This document shows positions 649-17,714 of a stretch of 18,658 nucleotides of DNA, piece by piece (position 1 is the stretch's first letter; the number at the start of each line of letters is the position of its first letter). The notes below the pieces were generated by a model. It was not told the origin of the DNA. It saw only the letters and a program-made list of their open reading frames with translations, and did not search any database. The position numbers and the translations under genes were made by a program. The stretch is from Aquamicrobium sp. (GTDB taxonomy: Bacteria > Pseudomonadota > Alphaproteobacteria > Rhizobiales > Rhizobiaceae). The stretch is from positions 1 to 18,658 of the forward strand of contig JACZJD010000167.1 of NCBI GenBank assembly GCA_014860725.1, written 5' to 3'.

Positions 649-1290
649 CTAGTCGAAGCTGCCTCCGGCTGCGGCCAGCGCCTCCATCGTATCGACGTCG
701 ATATCCGCGGCGGGGCCGAGTTCGACCTCGTGGACCGGAAGTCCCGAGGTCTCGAGCAGATGACGCGCGCCGGCGTCGCCTTCGAGCGTGAGGGCCGCGG
801 CGAACAGGCTGCGCGGAAGGATGACCGGATTCCGGCGCCGTCCCTGCGCGGTGGCCCGCACGATGCCCTCCCCGCCGGTGGCGAGGAAGCTGTCGATCAT
901 GGCGGCGAGATGCGCGGTGGTAATGCGGGGCATGTCGGCGAGATGGACGAGCAGGCCGATGCTGCCGTCCGGCACGGCCCGCACCGCAGCCTTGATGGAC
1001 GACGACAGGCCGGTGCCGAACGCCGGGTTATGGATCGTCTCCACATCCAGACCGGCGACGGCCGCCTCGATCGCCTCCGCCATGTGGCCTGTCACCAGGA
1101 AGACCGGCCTCCGGCCGGTGGCGAGCGCGCGCTCCGCCGCCAGGCGTACGAGGGGCTTTCCTTCGAAACGGGCCAGGAGCTTGTTGCGCTCCCCCATCCG
1201 GCTCGACCGGCCCGCCGCCAGGACGGCAATCGCTATCGCAGGATTCCCGGTTGCGGCTGGGCGGCGTGCGGGCGGTTTCGAGGCCTTCAT
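649..1290 (-). CDS. mocA: MocA-type molybdenum cofactor cytidylyltransferase
   Basis: This 213-aa protein has the MobA/MocA nucleotidyltransferase fold. The N-terminal nucleotide-binding signature is LAAGRSSRMG (24-33), followed by the conserved Lys in NKLL (37). HNPAFGTGLSSSIKAAV (87-103) matches the family's substrate loop, and LADMP (118-121) carries the Mg-binding Asp119. MocA proteins transfer CMP to molybdopterin to give the MCD cofactor used by xanthine dehydrogenase and CoxL-type enzymes. It starts 37 nt downstream of the xdhC-like gene in the same direction, so the two probably share a transcript. The obvious client is the CoxMSL-type hydroxylase at 14084-18545, about 12 kb away. A MobA-like guanylyltransferase is less likely because of the partner gene. 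Confidence 0.82.
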   Translation of the reverse strand: MKASKPPARRPAATGNPAIAIAVLAAGRSSRMGERNKLLARFEGKPLVRLAAERALATGRRPVFLVTGHMAEAIEAAVAGLDVETIHNPAFGTGLSSSIKAAVRAVPDGSIGLLVHLADMPRITTAHLAAMIDSFLATGGEGIVRATAQGRRRNPVILPRSLFAAALTLEGDAGARHLLETSGLPVHEVELGPAADIDVDTMEALAAAGGSFD

Positions 1291-1327
1291 GATGGCGGTC
1301 TTCCCGGGCAGCGTCTGCGAACGGGCC

Positions 1328-2272
1328 TTACGTATCGCCGGCTTCGATCAGCGGAGCGCCGCGCGCGTGCTCGACCTGGACGATCTCGGCCAAGATGGAG
1401 ATGGCGACGTCGGAGGCGGATTTGACGCCCGCATAGACGCCGGCCGGCCCCCTTATCCGGGCGCGGGCCGCCTCGTCCATTCCCTGCGCCTCGAGCATTT
1501 CGAGCCGTTGCCGATGCGTGCGCCGGCTTCCCATCGCGCCGATATAGAAGGCGTCCGTCCGCAGGGCGGCCGGGATGAGCTCCTTTTCCCATTCGTGATC
1601 GTGGAACATGAAGACGATGGCGGTCCAGGCATCCGCCGCGAAGCCGGGAAAGCTTGTCCCCGGTTCGATCGCCACCGTTTCGATCCCGTAGCCGCTCGCC
1701 GCTGCGCGCGTGGACCCGTCCGGGGACTGGAGCACGGTCGCGAATCCCGAGCAGTGCGCCAGCTTCGCGAGCTGCACGGCGCCGGGCCCGATGCCGGCCA
1801 CGATCAATCGGCGGCGGGGCCGGTAGCGCCGGACGGCCGGCCCGTCGGACGAGGCGGAGGCGCCGCCTATGCGCATCGACGCCGGCTGGCGGCTGGCGAG
1901 CCGGGAATCGACTGCGGCCAGCGTGCGCTCGGACAGGTCGACGTCGAAGAACAGCTCTATCGCGCTGCCGCACGGAAGCTGGATGTCCAGATATTTCGAT
2001 CCGCGGCCGTAGCGAACGCGGCGGGGCCTGCCTTCGTCCAGGGCGGCCAGCGCCTCGGCGACCACCGCGCGCTCGATGCAGCCGCCGGAAAGGTAGCCGA
2101 CCCACTCGCCCGATTGCGAGACCGCCATCTGGGCCCCGAGCGGCCGCGGCGAGGAACCCTCGATGGTAGTCAGCGTCACCAGCGCAACCTTGTGATCGGC
2201 GCGTATCCGGTCGAGCGCGAAGTCGAGGACGTAGTCATCGAACTTCTCCCAGCTTCCATCCGGATTCCTCAT
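1328..2272 (-). CDS. xdhC: XdhC/CoxI-family molybdenum hydroxylase maturation factor
   Basis: A 314-aa protein with the two expected XdhC parts. The N-terminal XdhC/CoxI domain (about 15-115) has TTIEGSSPRPLGAQM (35-49), the cysteine motif LSGGC (61-65) and a second conserved PCGS (C101). A Rossmann-like C-terminal domain follows, starting RRLIVAGIGPGAVQLAK (154-170), with YIGAMGSRRTHRQR at 243-256. XdhC proteins bind sulfurated molybdenum cofactor and insert it into apo-hydroxylases (family knowledge). The ATG at 2272 is preceded by a GAGGA at suitable spacing. It sits upstream of the mocA-like gene and shares its 185-nt leader with the divergent double-HxlR gene, so the two promoters are probably co-regulated. 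A conserved C-terminal patch near residue 285 reads YAGVKSASDVAISILAEI, slightly divergent from the usual IGA-containing version. Confidence 0.85.
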   Translation of the reverse strand: MRNPDGSWEKFDDYVLDFALDRIRADHKVALVTLTTIEGSSPRPLGAQMAVSQSGEWVGYLSGGCIERAVVAEALAALDEGRPRRVRYGRGSKYLDIQLPCGSAIELFFDVDLSERTLAAVDSRLASRQPASMRIGGASASSDGPAVRRYRPRRRLIVAGIGPGAVQLAKLAHCSGFATVLQSPDGSTRAAASGYGIETVAIEPGTSFPGFAADAWTAIVFMFHDHEWEKELIPAALRTDAFYIGAMGSRRTHRQRLEMLEAQGMDEAARARIRGPAGVYAGVKSASDVAISILAEIVQVEHARGAPLIEAGDT

Positions 2273-2448: not shown

Positions 2449-2465
2449 AGTCTTATAATGCAAGT
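2449..2465 (+). promoter_or_regulatory. 17-bp conserved element, copy 1 (hxlR-1 promoter/operator)
   Basis: AGTCTTATAATGCAAGT contains a perfect TATAAT (2454-2459) and two AAGTC-type boxes 14 bp apart (2448-2452 and 2462-2466). Copies with 15/17 and 14/17 identity lie on the minus strand at 9486-9502 and 9399-9415. Its overlap with a -10 box at the very start of the regulator gene suggests a binding site used for autoregulation. No good -35 box is present at 16-18 bp upstream. Confidence 0.6.
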
Positions 2466-3585
2466 CAATATGACGACGTTATGCGACCGGCAAGGCAGCG
2501 CGACGTCCGATCATCTCATGCAACGCGTGGAGCAGGTTTTCGTGGATCGCATCAGATCGCTGCAATGGAAGCCCAAGGGACAGGCGTCGCGGGAGGGCCG
2601 GGAAGAAGGGCCGGAAGAACCGGTTCTCGACCTTGCCGTCGCCCGGGCCGCTTCGGGCCGTTCCGTGCGATACGACCGCAACTGCTCCATCCGCCGGACG
2701 GTCGAGATCGTCCTCGACCGCTGGACGTTCCTGATCATTCGCGAGGCCTTCTTCGGCATCCGCGAGTTCGAGCGCTTTCAGGAAAGGCTGGGCGTTCCCC
2801 GCCAGACCCTGTCGGCGCGGCTGAAGCGTCTCGTGGACAACGAGATCTTCCGCACCGTCGCCAAGCCCGGCAGCCGCGGCCACCACTACCGTTTCACCGA
2901 GCGCGGCAAGGATCTCTTCCCGGTGATGCTGTCGATGATCGAATTCGGCGACAAGTGGCTGACGGGCGGAGCGCCGCCGCCGATGCTGCTCTACCATCGC
3001 AACTGCAGCCATCAGTGCCACCCGACGACCGTGTGCAGCGTGTGCCGGGAGCCGATCGACGCGCGCGACGTCTCGCAGCGCGAGGGGCCGGGCGCGGGAT
3101 TTTCCCTGCAGGAAAACCGCCCGACGAACCGCCGCTCCCCCGATGCGCTCCTCGAGCAGGTCCGCCCGTCGTCGGTCGGCCGGACGCTCGAGATCATCGG
3201 TGACCGATGGAGCTTTCTCGTCATCCGCGAGGGCTTCCTCGGGGTCAGGCGCTTCGACGAGTTGATCGAGAGGCTGGGGATTTCGAGCAACATCCTCGCC
3301 GATCGCCTTTCGCGCCTCGTCGAGACCGGCGTCCTGCGCAAGGAAAGGACCGACGGCGGCTTCAGCGAGTACCGCTTCACCGAGATGGGCCGCGATCTGT
3401 TCCGGCCGATGCTCGCCATGATGCGGTGGGGGGACACGTGGCTTTCCGGCGGAAAGGTGCCGCAGCGCGTGCGGCACCGCTCGTGCGACTGCGATTTTCA
3501 CGCCCTCGTCGTCTGCGATCATTGCGGCGAGCCGATCGCGTCGAACGAAACCCGCTACGAGCTGCGCTACGAGCTGAAGACCTGA
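2458..3585 (+). CDS. Tandem double-HxlR winged-helix regulator with two Cys clusters (hxlR-1)
   Basis: The 375-aa reading frame contains two complete HxlR-type winged helices. Repeat 1 (about 76-168) opens with CSIRRTVEIVLDRWTFLII, and repeat 2 (about 238-329) with VGRTLEIIGDRWSFLVI. Each ends in a FTERG/FTEMG wing and an EFGDKWL/RWGDTWL helix. Each repeat is followed by a cysteine cluster: C183, C187, C193, C196 (VCSVC) and C343, C345, C353, C356 (VCDHC), resembling a zinc-ribbon knuckle. Ordinary HxlR proteins are 110-150 aa homodimers, so this chain looks like a fused dimer. A paralogue lies at 13023-13991. The ATG at 2458 overlaps a TATAAT box, so translation may start later (ATG 2470, ATG 2518, or a GTG within codon 70 near the conserved domain). 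The first about 70 residues are not conserved in the paralogue. Likely the local regulator; effector unknown. Confidence 0.85.
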   Translation: MQVNMTTLCDRQGSATSDHLMQRVEQVFVDRIRSLQWKPKGQASREGREEGPEEPVLDLAVARAASGRSVRYDRNCSIRRTVEIVLDRWTFLIIREAFFGIREFERFQERLGVPRQTLSARLKRLVDNEIFRTVAKPGSRGHHYRFTERGKDLFPVMLSMIEFGDKWLTGGAPPPMLLYHRNCSHQCHPTTVCSVCREPIDARDVSQREGPGAGFSLQENRPTNRRSPDALLEQVRPSSVGRTLEIIGDRWSFLVIREGFLGVRRFDELIERLGISSNILADRLSRLVETGVLRKERTDGGFSEYRFTEMGRDLFRPMLAMMRWGDTWLSGGKVPQRVRHRSCDCDFHALVVCDHCGEPIASNETRYELRYELKT

Positions 3586-3586
3586 A

Positions 3587-3604
3587 GGCGGCGCCACCGC
3601 CGCC
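3587..3604. terminator. Candidate bidirectional stem-loop between convergent genes
   Basis: GGCGGCG, loop CCAC, CGCCGCC forms a 7-bp GC-only stem starting 2 nt after the hxlR-1 stop. It lies between convergent genes (the alcohol dehydrogenase ends at 3636). No T tract follows on either strand, so intrinsic termination is plausible but unproven. Confidence 0.4.
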
Positions 3605-3635
3605 GTCATTCCCGCGCGTCCGGAGGGGCGGGCGC

Positions 3636-4796
3636 TCACCACGCCGCGCGGTAGATCGCCAGCGCGTCGGCCTCGCCGACCGGGCGCGGGTTGTTGACCA
3701 GCAGCCGCTGCTGCTTCATCGCGTCGGCCGCCATCTTGGGCAGCGCCGCCTCGGGAATGCCGACGTCGCGCAGCCGCGGCTGGAGCCCGACGCGGACCGA
3801 AAGCGCGGCCAGCGCCTCGATGAAGGCGGCGCAGCGGCCCTGCACGCTTTCCTCGGCCGCAAGCCGCGGGAAGGCGTCGGCGGCGATCGCGGCATAGAGA
3901 TGCGCCGCGTCCGGCGCGTTGAAGCGCAGCACATGCGGCAGCACCAGCGCGTTCGACAGCCCGTGCGGAATGTGGAAGGTGCCGCCGACCGGATAGGCGA
4001 GCGCATGAACGGCCGCGACCGGCGAGTTGGCGAAGGCCTGCCCCGCCAGCATCGAGCCGAGCAGCATGGCCGAGCGGGCCGCAAGGTTCCGCCCCTCCGT
4101 CACCGCCGTCTCGATGTTGGCGCCGAGAAGCTGCAGCGCCTGCCTTGCCAGCATCCGCGACAGCGGGTTGTTGTTGGCGTTCTTCGAGGCATAGGCCTCG
4201 ATGGCGTGGACCATGGCGTCGATGCCGGTGGCGGCGGTGATCGCCGGCGGCAGGCCGAGCGTCAGCTCCGCATCGAGCACGGCGATGTCGGGCAGGATGA
4301 TCGGCGAGGAGACGCCGCGCTTTTCTTCCTCGCCGACGGTGATGATGGAGACCGGCGTCACCTCCGAGCCGGTGCCGGCGGTGGTCGGCACCAGCGCCAG
4401 CGGCAGGCGCGGCCCCTTGGCCTGGCCCACGCCCCAGGCCCCGTCGATGTCCTCGCCCGAGCCGATCAGCAAGGCTGCGAGCTTGGCGACGTCGAGCGAG
4501 GAGCCGCCGCCGAAGCCGACGACGCCGGTGGCCGTCGCGGCCTTTCCGGCCTCGACCGCCTGCATCAGCGTCGCCAGCGACGGGTCGGCCTCGACCGCGT
4601 CGAACACCGTCACGGCGATGCCCGCAGCTTCCAGCGAGGCGATGGCCGGGTCGCACAGGCCGAGCCCGCGCAGGCCCGGATCGGTGACGAACAGCACCGA
4701 GCGGCCGAGCCGCGGGCCGGCTATGGCACCGAAGCGCCGCGCCGCGCCGGGCTCGAACACCACCGAAGGCGTCGTGTTGAAGACGAATGGCGTCAT
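3636..4796 (-). CDS. Iron-containing alcohol dehydrogenase (group III)
   Basis: The 386-aa length is usual for the Fe-ADH/maleylacetate reductase superfamily. NAD(P)-binding motifs are GFGGGSSLDVAK (94-105) and PTTAGTGSEVTP (137-148). The metal ligands are all present: D193 and H197 in GIDAMVHAIEAY, H264 in AAVHALAYPVGG, and H278 in HIPHG. It should therefore be an active metal-dependent alcohol/aldehyde (or hydroxy-acid) oxidoreductase in the cytosol. It is the last gene of the leftward SBP-crotonase-SDR-ligase operon, 21 nt after the ligase stop. Position suggests it acts on an alcohol or semialdehyde precursor or product of the imported acid. Maleylacetate reductase is possible from the family, but nothing nearby makes maleylacetate. 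Confidence 0.88.
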   Translation of the reverse strand: MTPFVFNTTPSVVFEPGAARRFGAIAGPRLGRSVLFVTDPGLRGLGLCDPAIASLEAAGIAVTVFDAVEADPSLATLMQAVEAGKAATATGVVGFGGGSSLDVAKLAALLIGSGEDIDGAWGVGQAKGPRLPLALVPTTAGTGSEVTPVSIITVGEEEKRGVSSPIILPDIAVLDAELTLGLPPAITAATGIDAMVHAIEAYASKNANNNPLSRMLARQALQLLGANIETAVTEGRNLAARSAMLLGSMLAGQAFANSPVAAVHALAYPVGGTFHIPHGLSNALVLPHVLRFNAPDAAHLYAAIAADAFPRLAAEESVQGRCAAFIEALAALSVRVGLQPRLRDVGIPEAALPKMAADAMKQQRLLVNNPRPVGEADALAIYRAAW

Positions 4797-4817
4797 CTCA
4801 TCCTCCTCGCCGCTGCC

Positions 4818-6362
4818 TCAGGCACGAGCCGGCTTGTCCACCAGCTCGCGCAGCTTGAAGCGCATGATCTTGCCCGAGCCGGTGCGCGGGATTTCGGCGA
4901 CGACATGGATGGCGGCCGGCACCTTGTAGCCGGAGAGCGTCGTGCGGCAATGCGCGACGATGGCCTCGCCGTCGATGACGGCGCCCTCCCTCGCCACGAC
5001 GAAGGCGACGGGCACCTCGCCGAGCGTCGCGTGCGACACGCCGACGACGGCGGCGTCGCGCACGCCTTCGAGCGGCAGGATCGCCTCCTCCACCTCGGCC
5101 GGCGCGATGTTCTGGCCGCCGCGGATGATGATCTCCTTCAGCCGCCCGGTGATGGTCAGGAAGCCGCTCTTGTCGCTGCGGGCGAGATCGCCCGTATGAT
5201 ACCAGCCGTTGCGCAGCGCCGCGGCCGTCTCCTGCGGCTTGTCGTGGTAACCCAGCATCAGGTTCGGCCCGCGGCAGATCAGCTCCCCTTCCCGGCCGGG
5301 CTCGACGTCGAGGCCCGTCGCCGGGTCGACCAGCCGCACGGCAAGCCCGGGAACGGGCAGGCCGCAGGACCCCGGCACGCGGTTCCTGCCCGGCCAGTTC
5401 ATCGTCACCATGGTCGAGGTCTCGGTGATGCCGTAGCCGTCGAGCAGCTCGACGCCGAAATAGTCCTCGAACTCCTGGTTGAGGCTGGCCGGCATGATGG
5501 CGCCGGCCGACACGCAGCGCTTCACCCCGGCAAACGGCCTGCTGCCCGCGGCCTGCGCCGCCTGCAGCAGATAGTGGAACATGGTCGGCACGCCGGGCAT
5601 GACGGTGAAGCCGCCCCCGTCGAGGAGATCGATCGCGCCCTGGGTGGAGAACTTCTCCATGATGTATTCGCTCGCCCCGGTGGCGAGGATGCCGAGCACG
5701 GCGATGTTGAGCGCATAGGAGTGGAAGAGCGGCAGCGGCGACAGCACCGTGTCGCTCTCGTCGAGGCCGAGGATCGGCGCCCAGCATGCCGCCGTCACCC
5801 ACAGCATGCCGCGCGTCGTCAAAAGCACGCCCTTGGCGCGGCCGGTGGTGCCGGAGGTGTAGACGATGTAGGAGGCGCGGTCGATATCGTCGGGTTCGAG
5901 CGTCACGCCGTCGGCCGGGGCGGCGCAGAGCTGCCGGAAGGAAAGCGTGCCTTTACTGCCGTCGGCGTCGGTCAGGATCACGGTCTCCGGCACGGCCGCC
6001 TTCCCGAGCGCGGCCAGCCTGGCGCCGGTGGTGACGAGCGCGCGGGCGTTCGAATCCTCCAGCCGATAGATCGCTTCCGGCAGGGTCGCGTCATAGCTGA
6101 TCGGCACCGCCATGCCGCCCGCCCGTACGATGGCGAGGCAGGCGACGACCCAGTCGACCGAATTCGGCAGCCAGAGCGCGACGCTCGTCCCCGGCACCGT
6201 CCCCCTCGCCCTCAAGTGGGTGGCGAGCTTCGTCACCGCGCTTTCCAGCTCGCCATAGGTGATGGCGCGGCCGGCGTCGGCATAGGCCGTCTTGTGCGGA
6301 AAGCGCGTCGCCTGCCGCTTCAGCAGCTCCGCCACCGGCGCAATAAGATCGGTCCTGATCAT
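4818..6362 (-). CDS. AMP-forming acyl-CoA synthetase (ligase)
   Basis: A 514-aa member of the ANL superfamily with every core motif in place: P-loop YTSGTTGRAKG (168-178), YGITE (310-314), GWYHTGD (386-392), GRLKEIIIRGGQNI (406-419) and the C-terminal catalytic lysine K498 in RTGSGKIMR. It should activate a carboxylic acid through an acyl-adenylate to its CoA thioester. There is no signal peptide or membrane segment, so it is cytosolic. The ATG at 6362 has a strong GGAGGAAAG Shine-Dalgarno sequence. It follows the SDR gene by 38 nt. Substrate class (aromatic, furan, alicyclic or fatty acid) cannot be set from these motifs. The association with a Liv-type importer and a molybdenum hydroxylase favours a ring acid over a long-chain fatty acid. 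Confidence 0.9.
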   Translation of the reverse strand: MIRTDLIAPVAELLKRQATRFPHKTAYADAGRAITYGELESAVTKLATHLRARGTVPGTSVALWLPNSVDWVVACLAIVRAGGMAVPISYDATLPEAIYRLEDSNARALVTTGARLAALGKAAVPETVILTDADGSKGTLSFRQLCAAPADGVTLEPDDIDRASYIVYTSGTTGRAKGVLLTTRGMLWVTAACWAPILGLDESDTVLSPLPLFHSYALNIAVLGILATGASEYIMEKFSTQGAIDLLDGGGFTVMPGVPTMFHYLLQAAQAAGSRPFAGVKRCVSAGAIMPASLNQEFEDYFGVELLDGYGITETSTMVTMNWPGRNRVPGSCGLPVPGLAVRLVDPATGLDVEPGREGELICRGPNLMLGYHDKPQETAAALRNGWYHTGDLARSDKSGFLTITGRLKEIIIRGGQNIAPAEVEEAILPLEGVRDAAVVGVSHATLGEVPVAFVVAREGAVIDGEAIVAHCRTTLSGYKVPAAIHVVAEIPRTGSGKIMRFKLRELVDKPARA

Positions 6363-6400
6363 CTTTCCTCCCACGCAGCACGTGTTGCGGCGAAATCCGC

Positions 6401-7156
6401 TCACACCATGCAGAAGCCGCCGTTGACGCTGAGGACCTGGCCGGTGATCCAGCCCGCCCCCTCCGACGACAGGAACGCCACCGCCGGCGCGACGTCCTCG
6501 GGCTTCCCGATGCGGCGCAACGGATAGGCCTTGACGATCTTCTCCCTGTTCCTGGCGAGAAAATCGGCGTCGGAATGCGCCGTTTCCACCAGGCCGAGCG
6601 AAACGGTGTTGACGGTGATGTTGTCGCGTCCGAGCTCCTTGGCAAGCGACTTGCCGAGGGCGATCGTGCCGGCGCGCGCGGCCGCGACGATCGACAGGTT
6701 CGCCTCGCCGATGCGCGAGCTGTCGCCGACGATGCTGACGATGCGGCCGCCTTTCTGCGCGATCATGTGCGGGGCGACCGCATGGCAGCAGTTGAGCACG
6801 CCGTAGAGGCAGACGTCGATCTGCGCCTTCCAGTCCTCCTGCGTGCTTTCGACGAACTTGCCGTATTTCACGTAGCCGGCATTGTTGACCAGCACGTCCA
6901 CCCGGCCCCATTCGGCGACGATGGCGTCGACCATGGCCTTGACCTCGCCGTGGTCGCCGACGTCGCCCTTCCATGCCCTCGCCTCCCCGCCCGCGGCGCG
7001 GATGGCCTCGACCACGGCGGTCGCCTCGGCTTCGGAACGCCGGTAGTTGACCGCGACCTTCGCGCCTTCGGCGGCCAGCGTCCTCGCGATGTCTCCGCCG
7101 ACGTCGCGGCCGCCGCCGGTCACCAGCGCGACTTTCCCTTCAAGGCCAAGCTTCAT
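6401..7156 (-). CDS. SDR-fold protein with degenerate catalytic tetrad
   Basis: A 251-aa classical-size short-chain dehydrogenase/reductase fold. The dinucleotide loop TGGGRDVGG (13-21), D65 in the GDV motif and NNAG (91-94) are intact, as is the C-terminal ITGQVLSVNGG (237-247). The active site is not. Aligning around LSIVAAARAG (154-163) puts V157 where the catalytic Tyr should be and R161 at the Lys. The Ser position is G144 and the structural Asn is C116. The codons (GTC, CGC, GGC, TGC) are clear in the nucleotide sequence and the frame is otherwise undamaged, so this is not a frameshift. The protein probably binds NAD(P)H but cannot use standard SDR chemistry. It could be a binding or structural partner, or use a different mechanism. 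It lies between the crotonase-like and ligase genes of the operon. Confidence 0.82.
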   Translation of the reverse strand: MKLGLEGKVALVTGGGRDVGGDIARTLAAEGAKVAVNYRRSEAEATAVVEAIRAAGGEARAWKGDVGDHGEVKAMVDAIVAEWGRVDVLVNNAGYVKYGKFVESTQEDWKAQIDVCLYGVLNCCHAVAPHMIAQKGGRIVSIVGDSSRIGEANLSIVAAARAGTIALGKSLAKELGRDNITVNTVSLGLVETAHSDADFLARNREKIVKAYPLRRIGKPEDVAPAVAFLSSEGAGWITGQVLSVNGGFCMV

Positions 7157-7215
7157 TTCCAATCTCCGTGTCGTCGTTCGTCGGTGGCCGTCGCCGGCCG
7201 AAGGGCATGCGATCC

Positions 7216-7983
7216 TTACGCGCCCGTAAAGGCGGGCGGGCGCTTTTCGGCGAAGGCCGCGCGGCCTTCGCGATAATCGTGGCTGTCGCTGGCGAGGTCG
7301 ATCAGGCGCGCGGCCTCGTCCGCATCGAAGGTGCCGAGCGCGACGCCGTTGAGGATGTATTTCGCGCCGGCGATGGTCAGCGGCGCGCCGGCCGCGAGCG
7401 AGCGGGCATAGGTTCTCGCGGCCTCCAGCGGATCGTCTTCCACGCGGTCGACGAAGCCGGTCGACAGCGCCTTGCGGGCGTCGAAGCGTTCGGCCGAATA
7501 GAGAATGCGCTTCGCCTCGGTCAGGCCGACGAGCGCCGCGAGCTTGCGCGTCGCCTGCACGCCGTAGACGATGGACAGCCGCGCGGCCGGAATGCCGAAC
7601 ACCGCCTTCGGATGGGCGAAACGGAAGTCGCAGGACATGGCGAGATGCGCGCCGCCGCCGAGGCAATAGCCCTTCACCGCCGCGATGACCGGCTTGCCGA
7701 TATGGGCAATCTGCGCGCAGCCGTAATCGACCGCCACCTCATAGGCGGCGCTCTGGGCCTTGTCGTCCCGCGTGGAGCCGAACTCGGCGATGTCCGCGCC
7801 CGCGGAAAAATCGTCGCCGGCGCCGGTCAGGATCACGGCGCGGACCGCGCGGTCCTCGTTCAGCCGCGCGAAGACGTCGCCCGCCTCGCGCCACATCGCA
7901 TAGGTGACGGAGTTGCGCAGCGTCGGCCGGTTGAGCGTGACGGTGGCGACGCCGTCCTCGAGCTCGCAGAGAATGTCGGCCAT
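7216..7983 (-). CDS. Crotonase-superfamily protein (enoyl-CoA hydratase/isomerase-like), non-canonical active site
   Basis: A 255-aa crotonase fold. The oxyanion-hole regions are recognisable: SAGADIAEF (60-68) and GYCLGGGAHLAMSCDFRFA (105-123). The two glutamates that activate water in true enoyl-CoA hydratases are missing: H113 stands at the first (GGGAHL instead of GGGxEL) and A133 at the second (FGIPAARL instead of FGxPE). The residue after the GxxG loop is also unusual (VYGVQATRKL). It should bind a CoA thioester but may catalyse another reaction of the superfamily such as isomerisation, thioester hydrolysis or C-C cleavage. The start ATG at 7983 has GGAG 10 nt upstream. It is the first enzyme gene after the solute-binding protein, separated by a 137-nt gap with a strong stem-loop. 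Confidence 0.85.
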   Translation of the reverse strand: MADILCELEDGVATVTLNRPTLRNSVTYAMWREAGDVFARLNEDRAVRAVILTGAGDDFSAGADIAEFGSTRDDKAQSAAYEVAVDYGCAQIAHIGKPVIAAVKGYCLGGGAHLAMSCDFRFAHPKAVFGIPAARLSIVYGVQATRKLAALVGLTEAKRILYSAERFDARKALSTGFVDRVEDDPLEAARTYARSLAAGAPLTIAGAKYILNGVALGTFDADEAARLIDLASDSHDYREGRAAFAEKRPPAFTGA

Positions 7984-8072
7984 GGATTCCAGCTCCTGAT
8001 ATGCTCGCTGCGGCGGCGCGCCGGGGATCGGTTTCGGCGCCGGCTCGCCCGGTCGGCGACCGGCATCGGAAC

Positions 8073-8100
8073 GCGGCGGCCGCACCGTGACGGCCGCCGC
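8073..8100. terminator. Strong stem-loop between SBP gene and crotonase-like gene
   Basis: GCGGCGGCCG and CGGCCGCCGC pair perfectly (10 bp) around an 8-nt loop, about 20 nt after the stop of the solute-binding protein gene. No T tract follows in the leftward transcript. Structures like this after binding-protein genes often protect the 3' end of the SBP message or partly terminate, giving more SBP than downstream enzyme (known for mal/liv-type operons; inferred here). The rest of the 7984-8120 gap is GC-rich with no gene. Confidence 0.5.
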
Positions 8101-8120
8101 CGGGCGTCGGGAGGACGCGT

Positions 8121-9344
8121 CTACTTCTTCACCAGCGGGCACTGGCTTTCGGAAAGCGGGCGGTACGCCTCCTCGCCGGGGATGACCGAGACGAGCTTGT
8201 AGACGTCCCACTCGCCGGTCGACTCCTCGGGCGTCTTGACCTGATAGACGTACATGTCGTGCACCATGCGGCCGTCCTCGCGGATCACGCCGTTGGTCGC
8301 GAAGAAGTCGTTGACCGGCATCTCGCGCATCTTCGCCATCACGGCCTGCGCCTCCGTGGTGCCGGCCGCCTCGACGGCCTTGAGGTAGTGCATCGTCGAC
8401 GAGTAGTCGCCGGCGTCGCCCATGTGCGGCTTGCGGCCCATCCGCTCCTCGAACTTGGCGGCGAAGGCGCGCGTGCCCTCGTCGCGGTCCCAGTAGAAGG
8501 CGTTGGTGAGGATCATGCCCTGGGCGATGTCGAGACCGAGCGCATGGGTGTCGGTGAGCCAGACGAGCAGGCCGGCGACGGTCTTGCCGGACTGCGTGAG
8601 GCCGAACTCGCGCGACGAGCGGACCGCGTTGATGAAGGTCGTGCCCGAGCCCGCGATGGCCACCACCTCGGCGGGGGAAGCCTGCGCCTGCAGCATGAAG
8701 GCGCTGTGGTCGGAGGTCTCGATCGGGTAGCGGATCGCGCCGACCACCTCGCCGCCGCCCGCCTGGACGATCGCCGAGGCGTCGCCTTCGAGCGCGTGGC
8801 CGAACGCGTAGTCGGCGGTGAGGAAGAACCAGCTGTCGAGACCCTGGCGCATCAGCTCCTTGGCGGTGCCGTTGGCGAGGGCATAGGTGTCGTAGGCATA
8901 GTGGATCGAGTTGGGCGTGCAGCCGTCGTTGGTGAGCCGCGAGGAGCCCGAGCCGTTGACGATGGCGATGCCGTTCTCCTCCTTCGCGACCTGCGCCACG
9001 GCGAGCGCGATGCCGGAATTGATCAGGTTGGCGATCAGGGTCACGCCTTCGTTCTCGTACCAGCCGCGCGCGGTCGCGACCGCGACCTCCGTGCGGTTCT
9101 GGTGGTCGGCGGAAATGACCTCGACCGGCTTGCCCAGCACCTGACCGCCGAAATCCTCGACCGCCATCCTCACCGCGGTGATCGAACCTTCGCCGGACTC
9201 GTGCGAGAACTGGCCGGAGATGTCGGTGAGCACGCCGATCTTGACCGGACCGTCCTGCGCCAGCACCGCCGACGCCGCCAGAACGGTGCTGGCGGCCAGC
9301 GCGCCGGCCAGGAGGCCGCGCCGCGATCTCATTGAATTTTCCAT
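8121..9344 (-). CDS. ABC transporter periplasmic substrate-binding protein, LivJ/type I (Peripla_BP_6)
   Basis: A 407-aa protein with an export signal: MENSMRSRRGLLAGALA, a hydrophobic stretch to residue 29, and predicted cleavage after AVLA before QDG. The SRRGLL sequence resembles a twin-arginine motif, so Tat export is possible. The mature start VKIGVLTDISGQFS is typical of Leu/Ile/Val- and aromatic-acid-binding proteins. Later HYAYDTYALANG and GDYSSTMHYLKAVEAAG belong to the same fold. The ATG at 9344 is chosen because GGAGGAGAAAC precedes it and the signal peptide starts there; upstream in-frame ATGs would add 54 unlike residues. It is the first gene of the leftward operon and diverges from livGFHM, which encode its membrane partners. 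The family binds branched-chain amino acids, aromatic acids, amides or urea; ligand unknown here. Confidence 0.9.
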   Translation of the reverse strand: MENSMRSRRGLLAGALAASTVLAASAVLAQDGPVKIGVLTDISGQFSHESGEGSITAVRMAVEDFGGQVLGKPVEVISADHQNRTEVAVATARGWYENEGVTLIANLINSGIALAVAQVAKEENGIAIVNGSGSSRLTNDGCTPNSIHYAYDTYALANGTAKELMRQGLDSWFFLTADYAFGHALEGDASAIVQAGGGEVVGAIRYPIETSDHSAFMLQAQASPAEVVAIAGSGTTFINAVRSSREFGLTQSGKTVAGLLVWLTDTHALGLDIAQGMILTNAFYWDRDEGTRAFAAKFEERMGRKPHMGDAGDYSSTMHYLKAVEAAGTTEAQAVMAKMREMPVNDFFATNGVIREDGRMVHDMYVYQVKTPEESTGEWDVYKLVSVIPGEEAYRPLSESQCPLVKK

Positions 9345-9398
9345 CAGTTTCTCCTCCACCGGTTCGAGCCGGGCACAATGCCTTCGGCTCGCATTGCA

Positions 9399-9415
9399 AC
9401 TGGCGTTATAGGACT
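9399..9415 (-). promoter_or_regulatory. 17-bp conserved element, copy 2 (SBP operon promoter)
   Basis: On the minus strand this reads AGTCCTATAACGCCAGT, 14/17 identical to the element at 2449-2465. It keeps the AGTC-TATAA-GC-AGT framework. It lies 55 nt upstream of the SBP start codon in the sense direction. Flanking TTGCAA hexamers make a larger dyad (9393-9421). Confidence 0.55.
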
Positions 9416-9485
9416 TGCAATCGGCAAAAACTCCAGAAACATCGAAATTTTTTGACGATAGCCCGTTCCAGCCGTCATCTTTATA

Positions 9486-9502
9486 ACTTGCATTATTAGA
9501 CG
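9486..9502 (-). promoter_or_regulatory. 17-bp conserved element, copy 3 (between SBP and livG)
   Basis: On the minus strand this reads CGTCTAATAATGCAAGT, 15/17 identical to the element at 2449-2465. The similarity continues past the core: both are followed within about 10 nt by ATGACG. It lies 108 nt upstream of the preferred livG start (GTG 9610) and only 3 nt upstream of the first in-frame ATG (9505), another reason not to start translation there. Confidence 0.6.
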
Positions 9503-9609
9503 TCATGTGGTTTGGTCATGTCAAGCGGCCGCACAAAAAAATGCGCGCCGGGGAGACGTCGCCGCAGCCGGCGACAACGCCCGAGCAGGAGAAGCCGACG
9601 GGAGGAGCC

Positions 9610-10374
9610 GTGTCGGAAGAACAGCCAATCATCGAGGCGCGCGGCCTGACGCGCTCCTTTCACGGGTTCGTCGCGGTCAACAATGTGGACCTGCGCGTGC
9701 GCAGGGGCACGATCCACGCTCTCATCGGCCCGAACGGCGCCGGCAAGAGCACCCTGTTCAATCTGATCACCAAGTTCCTCACCCCGAGCCGCGGCCAGAT
9801 CCTCTACAAGGGCGAGGACGTCACGATGCTCCGGTCCGACGAGATCTCGCGCAAGGGAATGGTGCGGTCGTTCCAGATCTCCTCGGTGTTCCCGCATCTG
9901 AGCGCGCACGAGAACGTGCGCGTCGCGCTGCAGGCGCGTCGCGGCGGCACCTACTGCTTCTGGCTGTCCGACCGCCAGCTCGACGCGCTGAACGACCGCG
10001 TCGCCGAGCTGCTGGAGGCCGTCGGACTCGCCGCCTTCGCGCATGTCGCGGCGGTGGAGCTGCCCTACGGCCGCAAGCGCGCGCTGGAGCTGGCGACCAC
10101 GCTGGCGCTCGATCCGGAAGTGCTGCTTCTCGACGAGCCCATGGCCGGCATGGGGCGCGAGGACATCGCCCGCACCGCCGACCTGATCCGCAAGGTCGCG
10201 CAGTCGCGCACGGTGCTGATGGTCGAGCACAATCTCGGCGTCGTCTCCGACCTGTCGGACACCATCACCGTGCTTCGCCGCGGCGAGGTTCTGGCGGAAG
10301 GCAGCTATGCCGAGGTCGCGGCCGACCAGGAGGTCCAGAAGGCCTATATGGGAGGCGGCCATCATGCCCACTGA
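9610..10374 (+). CDS. livG: ABC transporter ATPase, LivG type
   Basis: A 254-aa ATPase from the chosen GTG start. Motifs are Walker A GPNGAGKST (40-48), the LivG-type variant signature LPYGRKRALE (151-160), Walker B VLLLDEP (171-177) and the switch histidine H207 in MVEHN. The GTG at 9610 is preferred because GGGAGGAG precedes it by 2-4 nt and the length then matches the family. In-frame ATGs at 9505 and 9541 lack ribosome-binding sites and would add a 22-35 residue polar tail. LivG pairs with LivF as the nucleotide-binding heterodimer energising uptake. The livF start overlaps the end of this gene by 11 nt. The symbol is by family; transported substrate not known. Confidence 0.9.
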   Translation: MSEEQPIIEARGLTRSFHGFVAVNNVDLRVRRGTIHALIGPNGAGKSTLFNLITKFLTPSRGQILYKGEDVTMLRSDEISRKGMVRSFQISSVFPHLSAHENVRVALQARRGGTYCFWLSDRQLDALNDRVAELLEAVGLAAFAHVAAVELPYGRKRALELATTLALDPEVLLLDEPMAGMGREDIARTADLIRKVAQSRTVLMVEHNLGVVSDLSDTITVLRRGEVLAEGSYAEVAADQEVQKAYMGGGHHAH

Positions 10375-11104
10375 TCGCCCCATTGATCGGTCCGCTGCCG
10401 CGCGCGAGAGGTGGCTGGATGTCGCCGGCCTCCAGGCCTGGTACGGCGAAAGCCACGTGCTGCACGGCATGACCCTCCATGTCGGCGCCGGCGAGATCGT
10501 CACCCTCGTCGGCCGCAACGGCGCGGGAAAGACCACGACCATGCGCGCCATCATGGGCATCCTGCGCAAGCGCGAGGGGACGATCCGCTACGGCGAGGTC
10601 GACATCGTCTCGCTCGCCCCGCACAAGGTGCCGCGCCTCGGCATCGGCTACGTGCCCGAGGAGCGCGGCATCTTCGCCTCGCTCAGCGTTCTGGAGAACC
10701 TGATGCTGCCGCCGGTCACGCAGCCGGACGGCATGTCGCTCAAGGAAATCTACGAATTGTTCCCCAACCTGCGCGGCCGCGACCGCACGGTCGGCACGCG
10801 GCTTTCCGGCGGCGAGCAGCAGATGCTGGCGATCGCGCGCATCCTGCGCTCCGGCGCCGACTTCATCCTGCTCGACGAGCCCACGGAGGGCCTGGCACCC
10901 GTCATCGTCGACCAGATCGCCGCCTCGCTCAGGGTCCTCAAGGAGCGCGGGCTGACGATCCTGCTTGTCGAGCAGAACCTCCAGTTCGCCTCCGCCATCG
11001 CCGATCGCCACTACGTGGTCGAGCAGGGGCAGGTGGTCGACGAGGTCCCCAACGAGGCGCTCGCCGCCAATATGGGCAGGCTCAACGCCTATCTCGGCGT
11101 GTGA
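10364..11104 (+). CDS. livF: ABC transporter ATPase, LivF type
   Basis: A 246-aa ATPase with Walker A GRNGAGKTT (50-58), LivF-type GYVPEERGIFASLSV (95-109), a canonical signature LSGGEQQ (147-153), Walker B FILLDEP (167-173) and the H-loop position occupied by Gln in LLVEQN (200-205), as is usual for LivF. The ATG at 10364 has GGGAGGCGG upstream and lies inside the last codons of livG (11-nt overlap), so the two are translationally coupled. An earlier in-frame ATG at 10307 would add 19 basic residues and lacks a site. It forms the second half of the ATPase pair on the cytosolic face of the importer. Confidence 0.92.
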   Translation: MPTDRPIDRSAAARERWLDVAGLQAWYGESHVLHGMTLHVGAGEIVTLVGRNGAGKTTTMRAIMGILRKREGTIRYGEVDIVSLAPHKVPRLGIGYVPEERGIFASLSVLENLMLPPVTQPDGMSLKEIYELFPNLRGRDRTVGTRLSGGEQQMLAIARILRSGADFILLDEPTEGLAPVIVDQIAASLRVLKERGLTILLVEQNLQFASAIADRHYVVEQGQVVDEVPNEALAANMGRLNAYLGV

Positions 11105-11131
11105 GCGCAATGAAACGGATGGAAGACCGCC

Positions 11132-12019
11132 ATGATTGACGTATTCGGCGTTCCGCTCGCCGTCCTCGCCGGCCAGGTGCTGCTCGGCCTCATCAACGGC
11201 TCGTTCTACGCTCTGCTGAGCCTCGGCCTCGCGATCATCTTCGGCATGCTCAACGTCATCAACTTCTCGCACGGCGCCTTCTACATGCTCGGCGGTTTCG
11301 TGACGTGGATGGTGTTCTACTACATGGGCATCGGCTACTGGCCGGGGCTCCTGCTCGCGCCGCTGGTCGTGGGCCTGATCGGGGCGGTGAGCGAGCGGCT
11401 GCTCCTGCGCCACCTCTACCGGGTCGATCATCTCTACAGCCTGCTGTTCACCTTCGGCGCGGCGCTGATGCTCGAGGGCCTGTTCCGCTACATCTACGGC
11501 TCGGCCGGCAAGCCCTATCCGCTGCCGGCGGAACTGTCCGGCGGCTACAATCTCGGCTTCATGTTCCTGCCGGCCTACCGCATCTGGGTCATCGTCATCG
11601 CGCTGGTGGTGTGCTTCGGCACCTGGTTCGCGATCGAGCGCACGAGGCTCGGCGCCTATCTGCGCGCGGCGACGGAGAATCCGAGCCTCGTGCAGGCCTT
11701 CGGCATCAACGTGCCGGTGCTGCTGACGCTCACCTACGCCTTCTGCGTCGGGCTGGCGGGCTTCGCCGGCGCGCTGGCGGCGCCGATCTATCAGGTCAGC
11801 CCCGGCATGGGCGCCAACTTCATCATCATCGTCTTCGCGGTCGTGGTCATCGGCGGCATGGGCTCGATCGTCGGCACCATCGTCACCGGCCTCACGCTCG
11901 GCGTGATCGAGGGGCTGACCAAGGTCTTCTTCCCCACCGCCTCTGCCATCACCGTCTTCATCATCATGATCCTTGTCCTGATGGTCCGGCCGACCGGCCT
12001 GTTCGGGCGCGAGAGGTAG
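11132..12019 (+). CDS. livH: Branched-chain amino acid-type ABC permease, LivH
   Basis: A 295-aa, strongly hydrophobic protein with about eight membrane segments. It starts with the characteristic LLGLINGSFYALLSLGLAII and continues with GMLNVINFSHGAFYMLGGF. The cytoplasmic coupling region ERTRLGAYLRAATENPSLVQAFGIN (about 170-195) is typical of LivH, and the C-terminal end MVRPTGLFGRER is the family's usual signature. A GGAAG motif lies 5-9 nt before the ATG, 27 nt after livF. With LivM it makes the transmembrane channel that receives substrate from the binding protein encoded at 8121-9344. Confidence 0.93.
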   Translation: MIDVFGVPLAVLAGQVLLGLINGSFYALLSLGLAIIFGMLNVINFSHGAFYMLGGFVTWMVFYYMGIGYWPGLLLAPLVVGLIGAVSERLLLRHLYRVDHLYSLLFTFGAALMLEGLFRYIYGSAGKPYPLPAELSGGYNLGFMFLPAYRIWVIVIALVVCFGTWFAIERTRLGAYLRAATENPSLVQAFGINVPVLLTLTYAFCVGLAGFAGALAAPIYQVSPGMGANFIIIVFAVVVIGGMGSIVGTIVTGLTLGVIEGLTKVFFPTASAITVFIIMILVLMVRPTGLFGRER

Positions 12020-12026
12020 GAACCGT

Positions 12027-12998
12027 ATGTCACTCCAGTCGACCGGCATCGTCTCATCGCAGCAGGGCGTCTCGATGCGCGCCGCCCTCCTCGTCGCCCT
12101 CGCCGCCGCGGCGCTCGCGGCGCCGTTCTTCGTCTACCCCCTCTTCCTGATGAAGATCCTGTGCTTCGTCCTCTTCGCCTCGGCCGTGAACCTCGTCCTC
12201 GGCTTCGCCGGACTGCTGTCGCTCGGCCATGCCGCATTCTTCGGCGGCGCGGCCTATGTCGCCGCCCACTCGGCCAAGGTGTGGGGCTTTCCCTTCGAGC
12301 TCGCGATCCTGTCGGCCGTCGCCTTCTCGACCGCCCTCGGCTTCGTGTTCGGCTTTCTGGCGATCCGCCGCCAGGGCATCTATTTCGCCATGGTCACGCT
12401 GGCGCTGGCGCAGATGATCTACTTCCTCGCCATCCAGATGCCCTTCACCGGCGGCGAGGACGGCATCACCGCCGTGCCGCGCGGCATGCTCTTCGGCGTC
12501 CTCGACCTGCGCAACTCGGTGACGATGTACTACGTGGTGCTGGCGCTGACGGCATTGGGCCTGCTGGTGATCTGGCGCGCCGTCCATTCGCCTTTCGGCC
12601 ACGTGCTCGCCGCGATCAGGGAGAACGAGGCGCGGGCGATCTCGCTCGGCCTCCAGCCCAACCGCTACAAGCTCATCGCCTTCACGCTCTCGGCCGGCCT
12701 CTCCGGGCTCGCTGGCGCGCTCAAGGCGATCTCCTTCCAGGTCGCGTCGCTGATCGACGTCACCTGGCACATGTCGGGCGAGGTGGTGCTGATGACGCTG
12801 CTCGGCGGCATGGGCACGCTGGTCGGCCCCGGCATCGGCGCTGCCTTCGTCGTGTCGCTGGAGCACTATCTCGCCACCAGCGGCCTGCCGATCACCTTCA
12901 TGATCGGCCTGATCTTCATGGTGTGCGTGATGCTGTTCCGGAAAGGCATCTACGGCGAGCTGCGCGAGTGGTACAGGCGCCGCAGCAACCGCGCCTGA
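12027..12998 (+). CDS. livM: Branched-chain amino acid-type ABC permease, LivM
   Basis: A 323-aa polytopic membrane protein. FASAVNLVLGFAGLLSLGHAAFFGGAAY (about 48-75) and the coupling helix GHVLAAIRENEARAISLGLQPNRYK (about 190-215) are LivM hallmarks, as is GGMGTLVGPGIGAAFV near the C-terminus. AGGAA precedes the ATG, 7 nt after the livH stop, so it is the last gene of the livGFHM operon. Its end faces the convergent hxlR-2 gene only 24 nt away. No periplasmic binding-protein gene lies downstream; the divergent one upstream serves this transporter (inference). Confidence 0.93.
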   Translation: MSLQSTGIVSSQQGVSMRAALLVALAAAALAAPFFVYPLFLMKILCFVLFASAVNLVLGFAGLLSLGHAAFFGGAAYVAAHSAKVWGFPFELAILSAVAFSTALGFVFGFLAIRRQGIYFAMVTLALAQMIYFLAIQMPFTGGEDGITAVPRGMLFGVLDLRNSVTMYYVVLALTALGLLVIWRAVHSPFGHVLAAIRENEARAISLGLQPNRYKLIAFTLSAGLSGLAGALKAISFQVASLIDVTWHMSGEVVLMTLLGGMGTLVGPGIGAAFVVSLEHYLATSGLPITFMIGLIFMVCVMLFRKGIYGELREWYRRRSNRA

Positions 12999-13022: not shown

Positions 13023-13991
13023 CTACTCGTCCAGCTCGTAGTTGAGCGTGTAGTCGGTCTCGTTGGCGACGATGGGCTCCTTGCAGTGGCTGCACACCAC
13101 CAGCGGCTCGAAGTCGGAGTTGCAGAGCCGGTGGCGCAGCCTCAGCGGCGGCTTGCCGTCGGAGAGCCAGCGGTCGCCCCAGCGCATCATCACGATCATC
13201 GGCCGGTAGAGGTCGTGCCCCATTTCGGTGAAGCGGTACTCGAAGCGGTCCCCGCCCTTGCGATACGGCTCCTTGCGGAACACGCCGGTCTCGACCAGGC
13301 GCGCGAGCCGGTCGGACAGGATGTTGGTGGCGATGCCCAGCTTCTCGATCATCTCGTCGAAGCGGCGCACGCCGAACCATGCCTCGCGCAGGATGAGGAA
13401 GCTCCAGCGGTCGCCGATGATCTGCAGCGTGCGCGCCACCGAGCACGGCCGCACCCGCTCGAGCAGGGCCGGATCGGAGCTGCGGCGGCTCTTGAGCCTG
13501 ATCTCGTAGGGCGAATAGCCCGCCCCCGGCCCGTCGCGGAAGGCGACGTCGCGCGCATTGACCGGCTCCAGGCATTCCGAGCAGACCGTGACCGGGTGGC
13601 ACTCGTGCCCGCAGCGCGTGTGGATGAGCCGCAGGGGCGGCGGCTCGCCCCTCGTCAGCCACTTGTCGCCGAACTCCATCAGCGACAGCATCGTCGCGAA
13701 CAGATCCTTGCCGCGCTCGGTGAAGAAATAGCCCTGCCCGCGCTCGCCCTTCTCGCGGCCCTGGACGAGGATGCCGTTGTCGACGAGCGCGGCGAGGCGG
13801 GTCGACAGCGTCTGCCGCGGGATGCCGAGCCGGCGCTGGAACTTGTCGAAGCTGTGGACGCCGAAGAAAGCCTCGCGGATGATGAGGAAGGTCCAGCTGT
13901 CGAGCACGATCTCGACGGTCTTGCGGACGGAGCAGTGCCGTTCCGCCCTCGCCTGGCCTATCGAAGTGTTGCGCGTGTCCATCGGAAGCAT
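13023..13991 (-). CDS. Tandem double-HxlR winged-helix regulator with Cys clusters (hxlR-2)
   Basis: A 322-aa paralogue of the regulator at 2458-3585. HxlR repeat 1 (about 20-112) begins CSVRKTVEIVLDSWTFLII; repeat 2 (about 183-275) begins SVARTLQIIGDRWSFLI. Between and after them sit Cys clusters C127, C131, C137, C140 (VCSEC) and C290, C300, C303 (VCSHC). The second cluster has lost one cysteine relative to the paralogue. The chain lacks the paralogue's 70-residue N-terminal extension. ATGs at 13991 and 13982 are both possible; neither has a strong ribosome-binding site. The frame stays open far upstream inside the large subunit gene, but that part is antiframe. It follows coxL by 92 nt and may be cotranscribed with the hydroxylase operon. 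Probably senses a pathway metabolite (inference). Confidence 0.88.
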   Translation of the reverse strand: MLPMDTRNTSIGQARAERHCSVRKTVEIVLDSWTFLIIREAFFGVHSFDKFQRRLGIPRQTLSTRLAALVDNGILVQGREKGERGQGYFFTERGKDLFATMLSLMEFGDKWLTRGEPPPLRLIHTRCGHECHPVTVCSECLEPVNARDVAFRDGPGAGYSPYEIRLKSRRSSDPALLERVRPCSVARTLQIIGDRWSFLILREAWFGVRRFDEMIEKLGIATNILSDRLARLVETGVFRKEPYRKGGDRFEYRFTEMGHDLYRPMIVMMRWGDRWLSDGKPPLRLRHRLCNSDFEPLVVCSHCKEPIVANETDYTLNYELDE

Positions 13992-16480: not shown

Positions 16481-17234
16481 TCGTAGAACCCGGCACCCTT
16501 GCGCAGGCGCTGCCACTGCTCGTCGTCATGGGCGGAGACGACGGTTTCGCCCCGGTCGCGGAAGCGCCTGAGCTGCGCAAGGGCGGCGGCGGCCAGGTCC
16601 ATGTCCCATGTGTTCTTCGGCGGCATACCCTCGTCGATGTTCGCCTGCAGCGGGGCGGCGTCGGAGGCGAGGACGAACGTCCCGTCGCGGTCGAGGCCGA
16701 CCCTTGCCACCGTCAGCCCGGGCGTGTGGCCCGGCATCGGCACGAGCACGATCCTGCCGTCGCCGAAGAGGTCGTGCTCGCCGTCGAAGGTCCGGAAGCC
16801 CTGCGGCTGGTCCCATTCGCGCGGGAAATAGCCCTGCTGCTCCGCGCCCTCGGCCCGCGCCGCCGCGACCTCGGCCGCGTGGCAGAAGATCGTCGCGCGG
16901 CGAAAGTGCTCGTTGCAGCCGCAATGGTCGGGATGAAGATGCGAGCATATGACGACGTCGATGTCGTCGGGCGACAGGCCGAGCTTGCCGAGCTCGCCGA
17001 CGACGGTCTGGTCGGGGGTGAAGATCGGCGTCATGACCCTCGCAAGGCCGCCCCAGCGCCCTTCCGGATCGACGGCGGCCTGCGGGCTGCACCCGCTGTC
17101 GAAGAGGACGTTCCCCTGCGCATGCCGGATCAGCGAGGCATGGACGGGCAGTTCGATCGTCTCGTCGCGGGCAGCGCCGGGCACGTAGATCGACCGCCGC
17201 ATGCGCAGGCGTCCGCCCGCAAGGAAATGCATCT

Positions 17235-17238
<4 letters not shown>
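16477..17238 (-). CDS. MBL-fold metallo-hydrolase, N-acyl-homoserine-lactonase-like
   Basis: A 253-aa metallo-beta-lactamase-fold hydrolase. Metal ligands are visible: HLHPDH (H100, H102, D104, H105), H171 in MPGHTPG, D193 in ASD and H237 in SAHD. LIRHAQGNVLFDSGCSP (36-52) and the SHLHPDHCG loop resemble the lactonase branch (AiiA/AttM-like) rather than beta-lactamases or glyoxalase II. There is no signal peptide, so it is cytosolic. It is embedded between the 2Fe-2S and molybdopterin subunit genes, overlapping both by 4 nt (ATGA on each side), which makes it an integral operon member. Likely role: hydrolysing a lactone, lactam or ester generated by the hydroxylase (inference). Quorum quenching is an alternative but less suggested by context. 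Confidence 0.87.

Positions 17239-17713
<475 letters not shown>

Positions 17714-17714
<1 letters not shown>

Follow-up and report, generated by a model that had tools for sequence, protein, structure and literature searches.

What controls the catabolic gene cluster carried on contig JACZJD010000167.1 of Aquamicrobium sp. (assembly GCA_014860725.1), and through which protein? We analysed the whole contig as one window of 18,658 bp. The window is one catabolic cluster: xdhC-mocA (minus strand) diverges from hxlR-1 (plus strand); an operon for a substrate-binding protein (SBP), an enoyl-CoA hydratase (ECH), a short-chain dehydrogenase (SDR), an AMP-binding ligase and an iron-containing alcohol dehydrogenase (FeADH) (minus strand) diverges from livGFHM (plus strand); and coxM, coxS, a lactonase gene, coxL and hxlR-2 follow in this order on the minus strand. 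The original prediction, made from this sequence, was that a 17-bp element found three times at two divergent promoters acts as a promoter plus binding site and places these genes under a double-HxlR protein (two HxlR domains in one chain). From the sequence comparisons described here, we consider it likely that the element is the operator of such a regulator, which would repress the cluster, often together with its own gene, and may use a phased pair of sites at the SBP operon.

Three copies of the element in the window

The three sites lie at the predicted coordinates and strands (Table 1), one in the xdhC/hxlR-1 divergent spacer and two in the SBP/livG spacer. Sites 2 and 3 match site 1 at 15/17 and 14/17 positions, and the AAGT boxes stand 14 bp apart (start to start), as had been claimed. 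Scanning the window with up to 3 mismatches returned no matches beyond these three, and 200 dinucleotide shuffles of the window gave a mean of 0.00 matches; the three sites are not chance occurrences. With a weight matrix whose training set included these sites themselves, they scored 33.3, 30.8 and 21.0, the next-best place in the window reaching −1.1. In an alignment of three close relatives, invariant columns made up 17/18 of site 2, 15/18 of site 3 and 141/321 overall.

Site 1 includes TATAAT at 2454–2459, without a good −35 box at normal spacing, and genome G252 has the same site at the same position. The HxlR-1 reading frame can be opened at an ATG inside the site (2458); since the closest database protein, P0001, begins at codon 2518, site 1 is probably upstream of hxlR-1. 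Sites 2 and 3 are separated by 87 bp. From the predicted −35 box TTGACA (9524–9519, minus strand) to TCTAAT within site 2 (9500–9495), the spacing is 18 bp. Site 3 has no −35 box. The probable start codon of SBP, an ATG at 9344 chosen because GGAGGAG precedes it, is 55 bp downstream of the site, which resembles an accessory operator in phase with site 2.

Conservation of the element in related loci

Conservation and genome-wide occurrence were assessed in relatives of the window. The nearest loci are on a contig of a Hyphomicrobiales metagenome-assembled genome (L001/L020, genome G001) and in G252, and related clusters occur on plasmids of Rhizobium, Sinorhizobium, Agrobacterium, Aminobacter and Bradyrhizobium (12 of the 22 plasmid records from one search were fetched). 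Sixty-six sites at recurring places, those of the window among them, yielded the consensus AAGTCTAATAATGCAAGT. Such places are the SBP/livG spacer, usually with two sites (21/21 LivG/SBP spacers had at least one), the coxG/coxM spacer where these genes diverge (one site), the region upstream of hxlR-2 in 13 loci and that upstream of hxlR-1 in the window and G252.

The matrix gave 27 matches above 14 in held-out loci (444,689 bases). On the same DNA, 60 column-permuted matrices gave a mean of 0.57 matches (largest 4) and the reversed matrix gave 0. A site above 14 was present in 15/16 held-out clusters, G175 being the exception. Across 34 loci, 96/96 sites fell outside matched genes, which span 52.5% of that DNA, as did 27/27 in the held-out part. 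Among junctions of neighbouring matched genes with gaps of at most 1,500 bp, a site was found in 52/53 divergent, 4/359 tandem and 7/42 convergent ones. The element is thus kept at homologous loci, as the original prediction required, and the divergent and tandem counts place it at expected transcription starts and not inside operons. Gene order is highly variable in the G742 family, yet sites precede whichever operon (coxM, ECH, thioesterase, FeADH or SBP) starts. Standing outside the 34-locus counts were R. acidisoli (L035; broken cluster, split regulator), G835, L023 and L002–L006. The L035 plasmid cluster is decaying, with partial coxM and coxL genes and a regulator annotated as two overlapping pieces.

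Operator-like sites also lie between the 3′ ends of livM and coxG (Table 1), followed closely, in several loci, by a terminator-like hairpin; in G252 a site is directly downstream of coxG, beside a livM-like fragment. At a distance of about 940 bp from the coxM operator, the livM/coxG site may serve as an auxiliary one. Two operator-like sites were seen outside the core cluster, L038:1892 (score 26.8) and L029:25865 (20.0). The former precedes an alcohol/aldehyde dehydrogenase gene pair by about 200 bp, and this pair may be a further member of the regulon.

Co-occurrence of the element with double-HxlR genes

In the family of G001 (394 genomes), 8 genomes carry a double-HxlR gene at E ≤ 1e-80. 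Allowing up to 2 mismatches, the element was present in 7/8 carriers and 19/386 others (Fisher p 1.8e-8), and with up to 1 mismatch in 5/8 carriers and 1/386 others; a reversed control pattern was present in 0/8 carriers and 55/386 others (counted from the results table). At up to 3 mismatches, 15/15 carrier matches were at the cluster, in 7/8 carriers, with none in G175. The reversed pattern gives 11 matches in the same 8 carriers at this threshold, so here the location of the matches, and not their number, is informative. This location disposes of the possibility that the element is common genome-wide at unrelated promoters.

For the G742 family, in which 12/100 genomes carry a double-HxlR gene, the pattern was derived from the clusters of these carriers. 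A perfect match was found in 11/12 carriers and 0/88 others; at up to 1 mismatch the counts were 11/12 and 3/88, and the reversed control gave 4/12 and 12/88. All 21 carrier matches were at clusters, in 11/12 carriers. Co-occurrence in two families (7/8 against 19/386; 11/12 against 3/88) therefore supports the predicted link with a double-HxlR protein.

Double-HxlR genes were found in 4/397 genomes of an order-level sample and 2/385 of a class-level sample, G001 being in both. All 27 distant SBP homologue loci (49–60% identity) in whose source no double-HxlR gene was found lacked a site above 7.2, and 19/19 plasmid records with an SBP of at least 69% identity also carry the double-HxlR gene. 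In G374, only an HxlR gene fragment was matched beside a cluster with two SBP operators (contig C50, L076:13231-13377), a possible natural case of control in trans.

Two double-HxlR proteins

Pfam PF01638 matched two stretches each in HxlR-1 and HxlR-2 (E 1.5e-32 and 1.2e-33), in each case scoring above the Pfam cut-off. At E ≤ 1e-3 a protein search retrieved 706 relatives of comparable length (best 120 listed), not all of them checked for two domains. Control by a double-HxlR protein, as predicted, is supported with one refinement, which concerns the type. An HxlR-2-type gene is present in 33/34 clusters (L076 having a fragment) and HxlR-1 in 3/34, which argues against HxlR-1 as the sole regulator. 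By this distribution HxlR-2 is most likely the cognate, general regulator, and HxlR-1 is an additional paralogue, found in this lineage and likely reading the same site. A site is found within 400 bp upstream of 19/35 HxlR-2-type genes, and hxlR-1 has one both in the window and in G252. In the window, G252 and G001, hxlR-2 stands after coxL and may be controlled via the coxM operon.

Residues P55, R56, T58 and L59, together with N220, R225 and L226 (both domains), are invariant in 57 aligned proteins, both paralogues included; in our reading of the helix-turn-helix these would be recognition-helix residues. An AlphaFold2 model of HxlR-2 has both domains in tandem (predicted local distance difference test, pLDDT, 85.4; predicted template modelling score, pTM, 0.84) and is compatible with a single-chain pseudo-dimer. 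Cysteines after each domain (C124, C134 and C137; C287, C297 and C300 of HxlR-2) are invariant in 57 sequences, which suggests two small zinc-ribbon-like or redox-sensitive parts in HxlR-1 and HxlR-2.

The distant double-HxlR loci L002–L006 (36–44% identity) contain no site above 12.2. One of them, L006 (Eilatimonas milleporae), has a site of 12.2 at L006:9947, about 75 bp before the distant double-HxlR match, on a contig that also carries FeADH, thioesterase and dehydrogenase relatives; this weak site is possibly a diverged form of the same operator. A scan of viral contigs gave a single match (32%). Fold and sequence searches of solved structures returned single HxlR and MarR chains, with no natural double HxlR among the matches listed, and a literature search, part of it covering top-ranked results only, gave no description of a double HxlR or of its operator.

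Promoter register and symmetry of the site

The description of the element as a promoter plus binding site needed refining: the element fits an operator that overlaps the −10 box, with a −35 box that shifts, better than the promoter proper. Counting back from the first A of the element, a TTGACA-like box begins 17 bp away in 16/18 coxM sites, which puts AATAAT (within the element) at 16 bp. At distal SBP sites such a box starts 21–22 bp before the element in 9/18 cases, with TCTAAT then at 17–18 bp. Because the letters stay while the promoter register moves (the −35 shifts by 4–5 bp), the element is under a constraint other than that of the polymerase. Proximal SBP sites, whose presumed location is the leader, have a −35 box of at least 5/6 in 0/15 cases, and 13/13 listed hxlR-2 sites face away from the gene.

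A direct repeat with a lag of 14 bp was reached by 1% of 400 column permutations, which supports the direct-repeat site put forward in the original prediction. Inverted symmetry was matched by 93.5% of 400 permutations, i.e. was no better than chance, and a palindromic operator is thus not supported. A dyad-symmetric operator is expected of a homodimeric HxlR/DUF24 regulator; its lack here bears on the binding mode, not on membership of the HxlR family.

Probable paired operators at the SBP promoter

Two sites are present in 18/21 SBP/livG spacers (the second site of G187 scores only 11.0), at distances of 87–89, 97–100, 108–109 and 119 bp. Over the periods scanned (8–14 bp), phase coherence peaked at 10.4–10.7 bp; the resultant length at 10.5 bp was 0.96 for seven lineages (p 4.5e-5 when tested against uniform spacing). 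This spacing is suggestive of looping or cooperative filling, and we give even chances to the pair being used in this way.

Proposed mechanism and alternative explanations

It is highly likely that the element serves a double-HxlR protein as its operator, and somewhat less surely, though still probably, the main effect would be repression. Two non-identical HxlR domains in one polypeptide would form a single-chain pseudo-dimer on an oriented, asymmetric site, and the regulator placed over the −10 box would exclude RNA polymerase. The two SBP operators, in helical phase 8.3–11.3 turns apart, would be bridged or filled cooperatively, and a pathway metabolite, perhaps the CoA thioester from the AMP-binding ligase, would release the protein. 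HxlR-2 would serve as the general regulator and HxlR-1, with its own operator, as a paralogue likely on the same site. The regulon would cover uptake (SBP-LivGFHM), CoA activation, the CoxMSL-type molybdenum hydroxylase with its maturation and further oxidation, and the regulator's own gene would be under direct control in about half of the loci. A more specific version, which we put forward only tentatively, is that the HxlR pseudo-dimer reads the asymmetric 14-bp direct-repeat operator, that paired complexes bridge the SBP operators and that the fusion replaced the HxlR family's palindrome rule.

Several observations weigh against this proposal. The 66 sites used to train the matrix were hand-picked at recurring places, and stray matches with 3–4 mismatches were omitted from it, such as the one at 6856 inside the SDR gene. 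G175 (L027) has no match at up to 4 mismatches and only a weak variant (9.2), and G835, a contig of 4,288 bases, has no site above 8. Many loci are close relatives, so the locus counts are not independent. Convergent coxG/livM junctions have a site above 14 in 7/9 cases, which no promoter accounts for. No site lies within 400 bp upstream of 16/35 HxlR-2-type genes, that of the window included. As for the paired sites, a single SBP site is found in G173, G742 and G1211; pairs 22–23 bp apart in SBP/hxlR spacers (G742 family, Bradyrhizobium elkanii) and a 106-bp pair upstream of ECH in G592 are out of phase; and the lineages entering the phase statistic were grouped by the author of the analysis. 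Some carriers of the double-HxlR gene may have been missed, since scoring was limited to the few best candidates of each genome. The intact double-HxlR gene of G374 is on another contig (C4), with no site above 8.1 within 20 kb.

Three other explanations deserve consideration. Were the element merely the conserved sigma-70-type −10 box (TATAAT/TAATAAT) of strong promoters, no dedicated regulator would be needed, and TATAAT in site 1 as well as a −35-like box of at least 5/6 upstream of 17/18 coxM and 10/18 distal SBP sites would be explained. It would leave unexplained why the −35 stands at varying distance from the same element, why none of the 15 proximal SBP sites has a −35 of 5/6, why the 13 listed hxlR-2 sites face away from the gene, why AGTCT and GCAAGT, outside the −10, are also conserved, and why the element is rare in regulator-free genomes, which must have many promoters. 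The shifting −35, the sites in 5′ leaders and the rarity without the regulator led us to reject the sites as mere −10 boxes, an explanation we regard as very improbable. The element could instead be the operator of a regulator encoded elsewhere, with the double-HxlR genes as passengers of the cluster. Regulator and cluster are nearly always linked, so co-occurrence cannot fully assign the operator to HxlR, and G374 keeps its sites with only an HxlR fragment beside the cluster. Yet G374 retains its intact gene elsewhere; a double-HxlR gene is the sole regulator gene annotated within the cluster in nine plasmid loci (PLSDB tables being incomplete); sites precede 19/35 HxlR-2-type genes as well as hxlR-1; and the element is rare in related genomes without the gene (19/386 and 3/88). 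We consider a regulator encoded elsewhere improbable.

The remaining alternative keeps the double-HxlR protein on its operator and reverses the sign, the protein at or beside the −10 box helping the polymerase. An operator over the −10 box, or a second site downstream of the promoter, is typical of repression, and both arrangements are found here; in addition, coxM promoters are near consensus at −35 and −10 and should need no help. The case for repression is argued from site position alone. In favour of activation, site 1 has no good −35 box, and the SBP spacers of 17–18 bp are not short. The closest precedent also speaks for activation, B. subtilis HxlR at hxlAB being a formaldehyde-responsive positive regulator according to PMC7835342 and PMC9069715. 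On balance activation is unlikely.

Comparison with known regulators

SarS of Staphylococcus aureus (PDB 1P4X) has two winged-helix domains in one chain and belongs to the SarA/MarR family. The tandem winged helix-turn-helix in a single chain resembles the double-HxlR proteins (Foldseek match at E 0.02); SarS differs in family, and the structural match is weak (template modelling scores 0.21 and 0.26, root-mean-square deviation 17 Å). Paired operators of the lac/gal type show helical phasing, and the SBP pairs are alike in having two operators at one promoter with centre distances that differ by whole helical turns; here, looping would follow from spacing only.

Single-domain HxlR of Bacillus subtilis (DUF24/HxlR; PDB 7BZG with DNA) binds DNA as a dimer (PMC7835342), whereas the present proteins are fusions of two different domains with an asymmetric site. 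The same source presents the engineered sensor HxlR-cpYFP-HxlR, in which two HxlR subunits in one chain still respond; that chain is man-made, with identical subunits around a fluorescent protein, in contrast to the natural fusion of two diverged halves seen here. According to PMC4737184, CouR (MarR family) is likewise a winged helix-turn-helix repressor of a CoA-dependent acid catabolic cluster. Its release by the p-coumaroyl-CoA thioester offers a model for a possible inducer here, although CouR is a homodimer of another family.

The new finding is a recognisable operator code, which belongs to a group of fused HxlR regulators; a dedicated catabolic regulon is itself of a familiar kind. The regulator architecture and the asymmetric site are unusual, and the overall regulon logic is ordinary. 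With this code the regulon can be recognised directly in genome sequence. A regulator that combines two domains in one chain and reads an asymmetric site would also serve as a test case for the effect of dimer fusion on operator symmetry. In rhizobia and their relatives, an uncharacterised and often plasmid-borne molybdenum-hydroxylase pathway becomes one switchable unit, whose substrate can therefore be searched for with a reporter.

Genes of the cluster

Features are collected in Table 1. Relatives of hxlR-1 are found at 80–88% in G252 and G001. LivF, livH and livM, like coxS and coxM, were assigned from open reading frames and their match to annotated relatives.

Table 1. Sites and genes of the cluster. 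Coordinates are those of the window unless a locus is named.
Feature	Coordinates	Strand	Sequence, location or basis
Operator site 1	2449..2465	+	AGTCTTATAATGCAAGT; xdhC/hxlR-1 divergent spacer
Operator site 2 (SBP distal)	9486..9502	-	CGTCTAATAATGCAAGT; overlaps −10 of SBP promoter
Operator site 3 (SBP proximal)	9399..9415	-	AGTCCTATAACGCCAGT; presumed 5′ leader
Predicted −35 of SBP promoter	9519..9524	-	TTGACA; sequence
Operator-like sites of relatives	L029:12515, L032:15132, L033:11772, L036:12030, L037:14477, L038:15210, L078:2634; also L075:11843		AGTCTTCTTATGCAAGT and variants; between livM and coxG 3′ ends
xdhC and mocA (molybdenum-cofactor maturation)	649..2272	-	Sub-cut-off NCBIfam matches, XdhC and MocA models
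hxlR-1, double HxlR protein	2518..3585	+	Pfam PF01638, two stretches
FeADH	3636..4796	-	PF00465/PF25137
AMP-binding acyl-CoA ligase	4818..6362	-	PF00501
SDR	6401..7156	-	PF13561
ECH family	7216..7983	-	PF00378
SBP (periplasmic), first operon gene	8121..9344	-	PF13458
livGFHM transporter genes	9611..12998	+	LivG PF00005; livG start inferred
hxlR-2, double HxlR protein	13023..13982	-	Pfam PF01638, two stretches
coxL, MBL-fold lactonase-like gene, coxS, coxM	14084..18484	-	Upstream of hxlR-2, same direction

The window ends in an 82-nt inverted repeat, 98% complementary (18471–18552 and 18577–18658), in which the N-terminal coding part of coxM recurs reversed. The repeat looks like a fold-back assembly artefact at the contig end, and the true coxM promoter is therefore missing from the window. 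Judging by relatives, an element is predicted roughly 200–280 bp before coxM.

As to the pathway substrate, the ten proteins tested gave no match above cut-off among the NCBIfam models listed (for three of them, the best 25). Among solved structures, quinoline 2-oxidoreductase is the nearest relative of CoxL by sequence. Clusters of relatives add a thioesterase and a succinate-semialdehyde dehydrogenase to the pathway genes of the window, and the pathway looks like one that degrades a cyclic or hydroxylated acid towards succinate.

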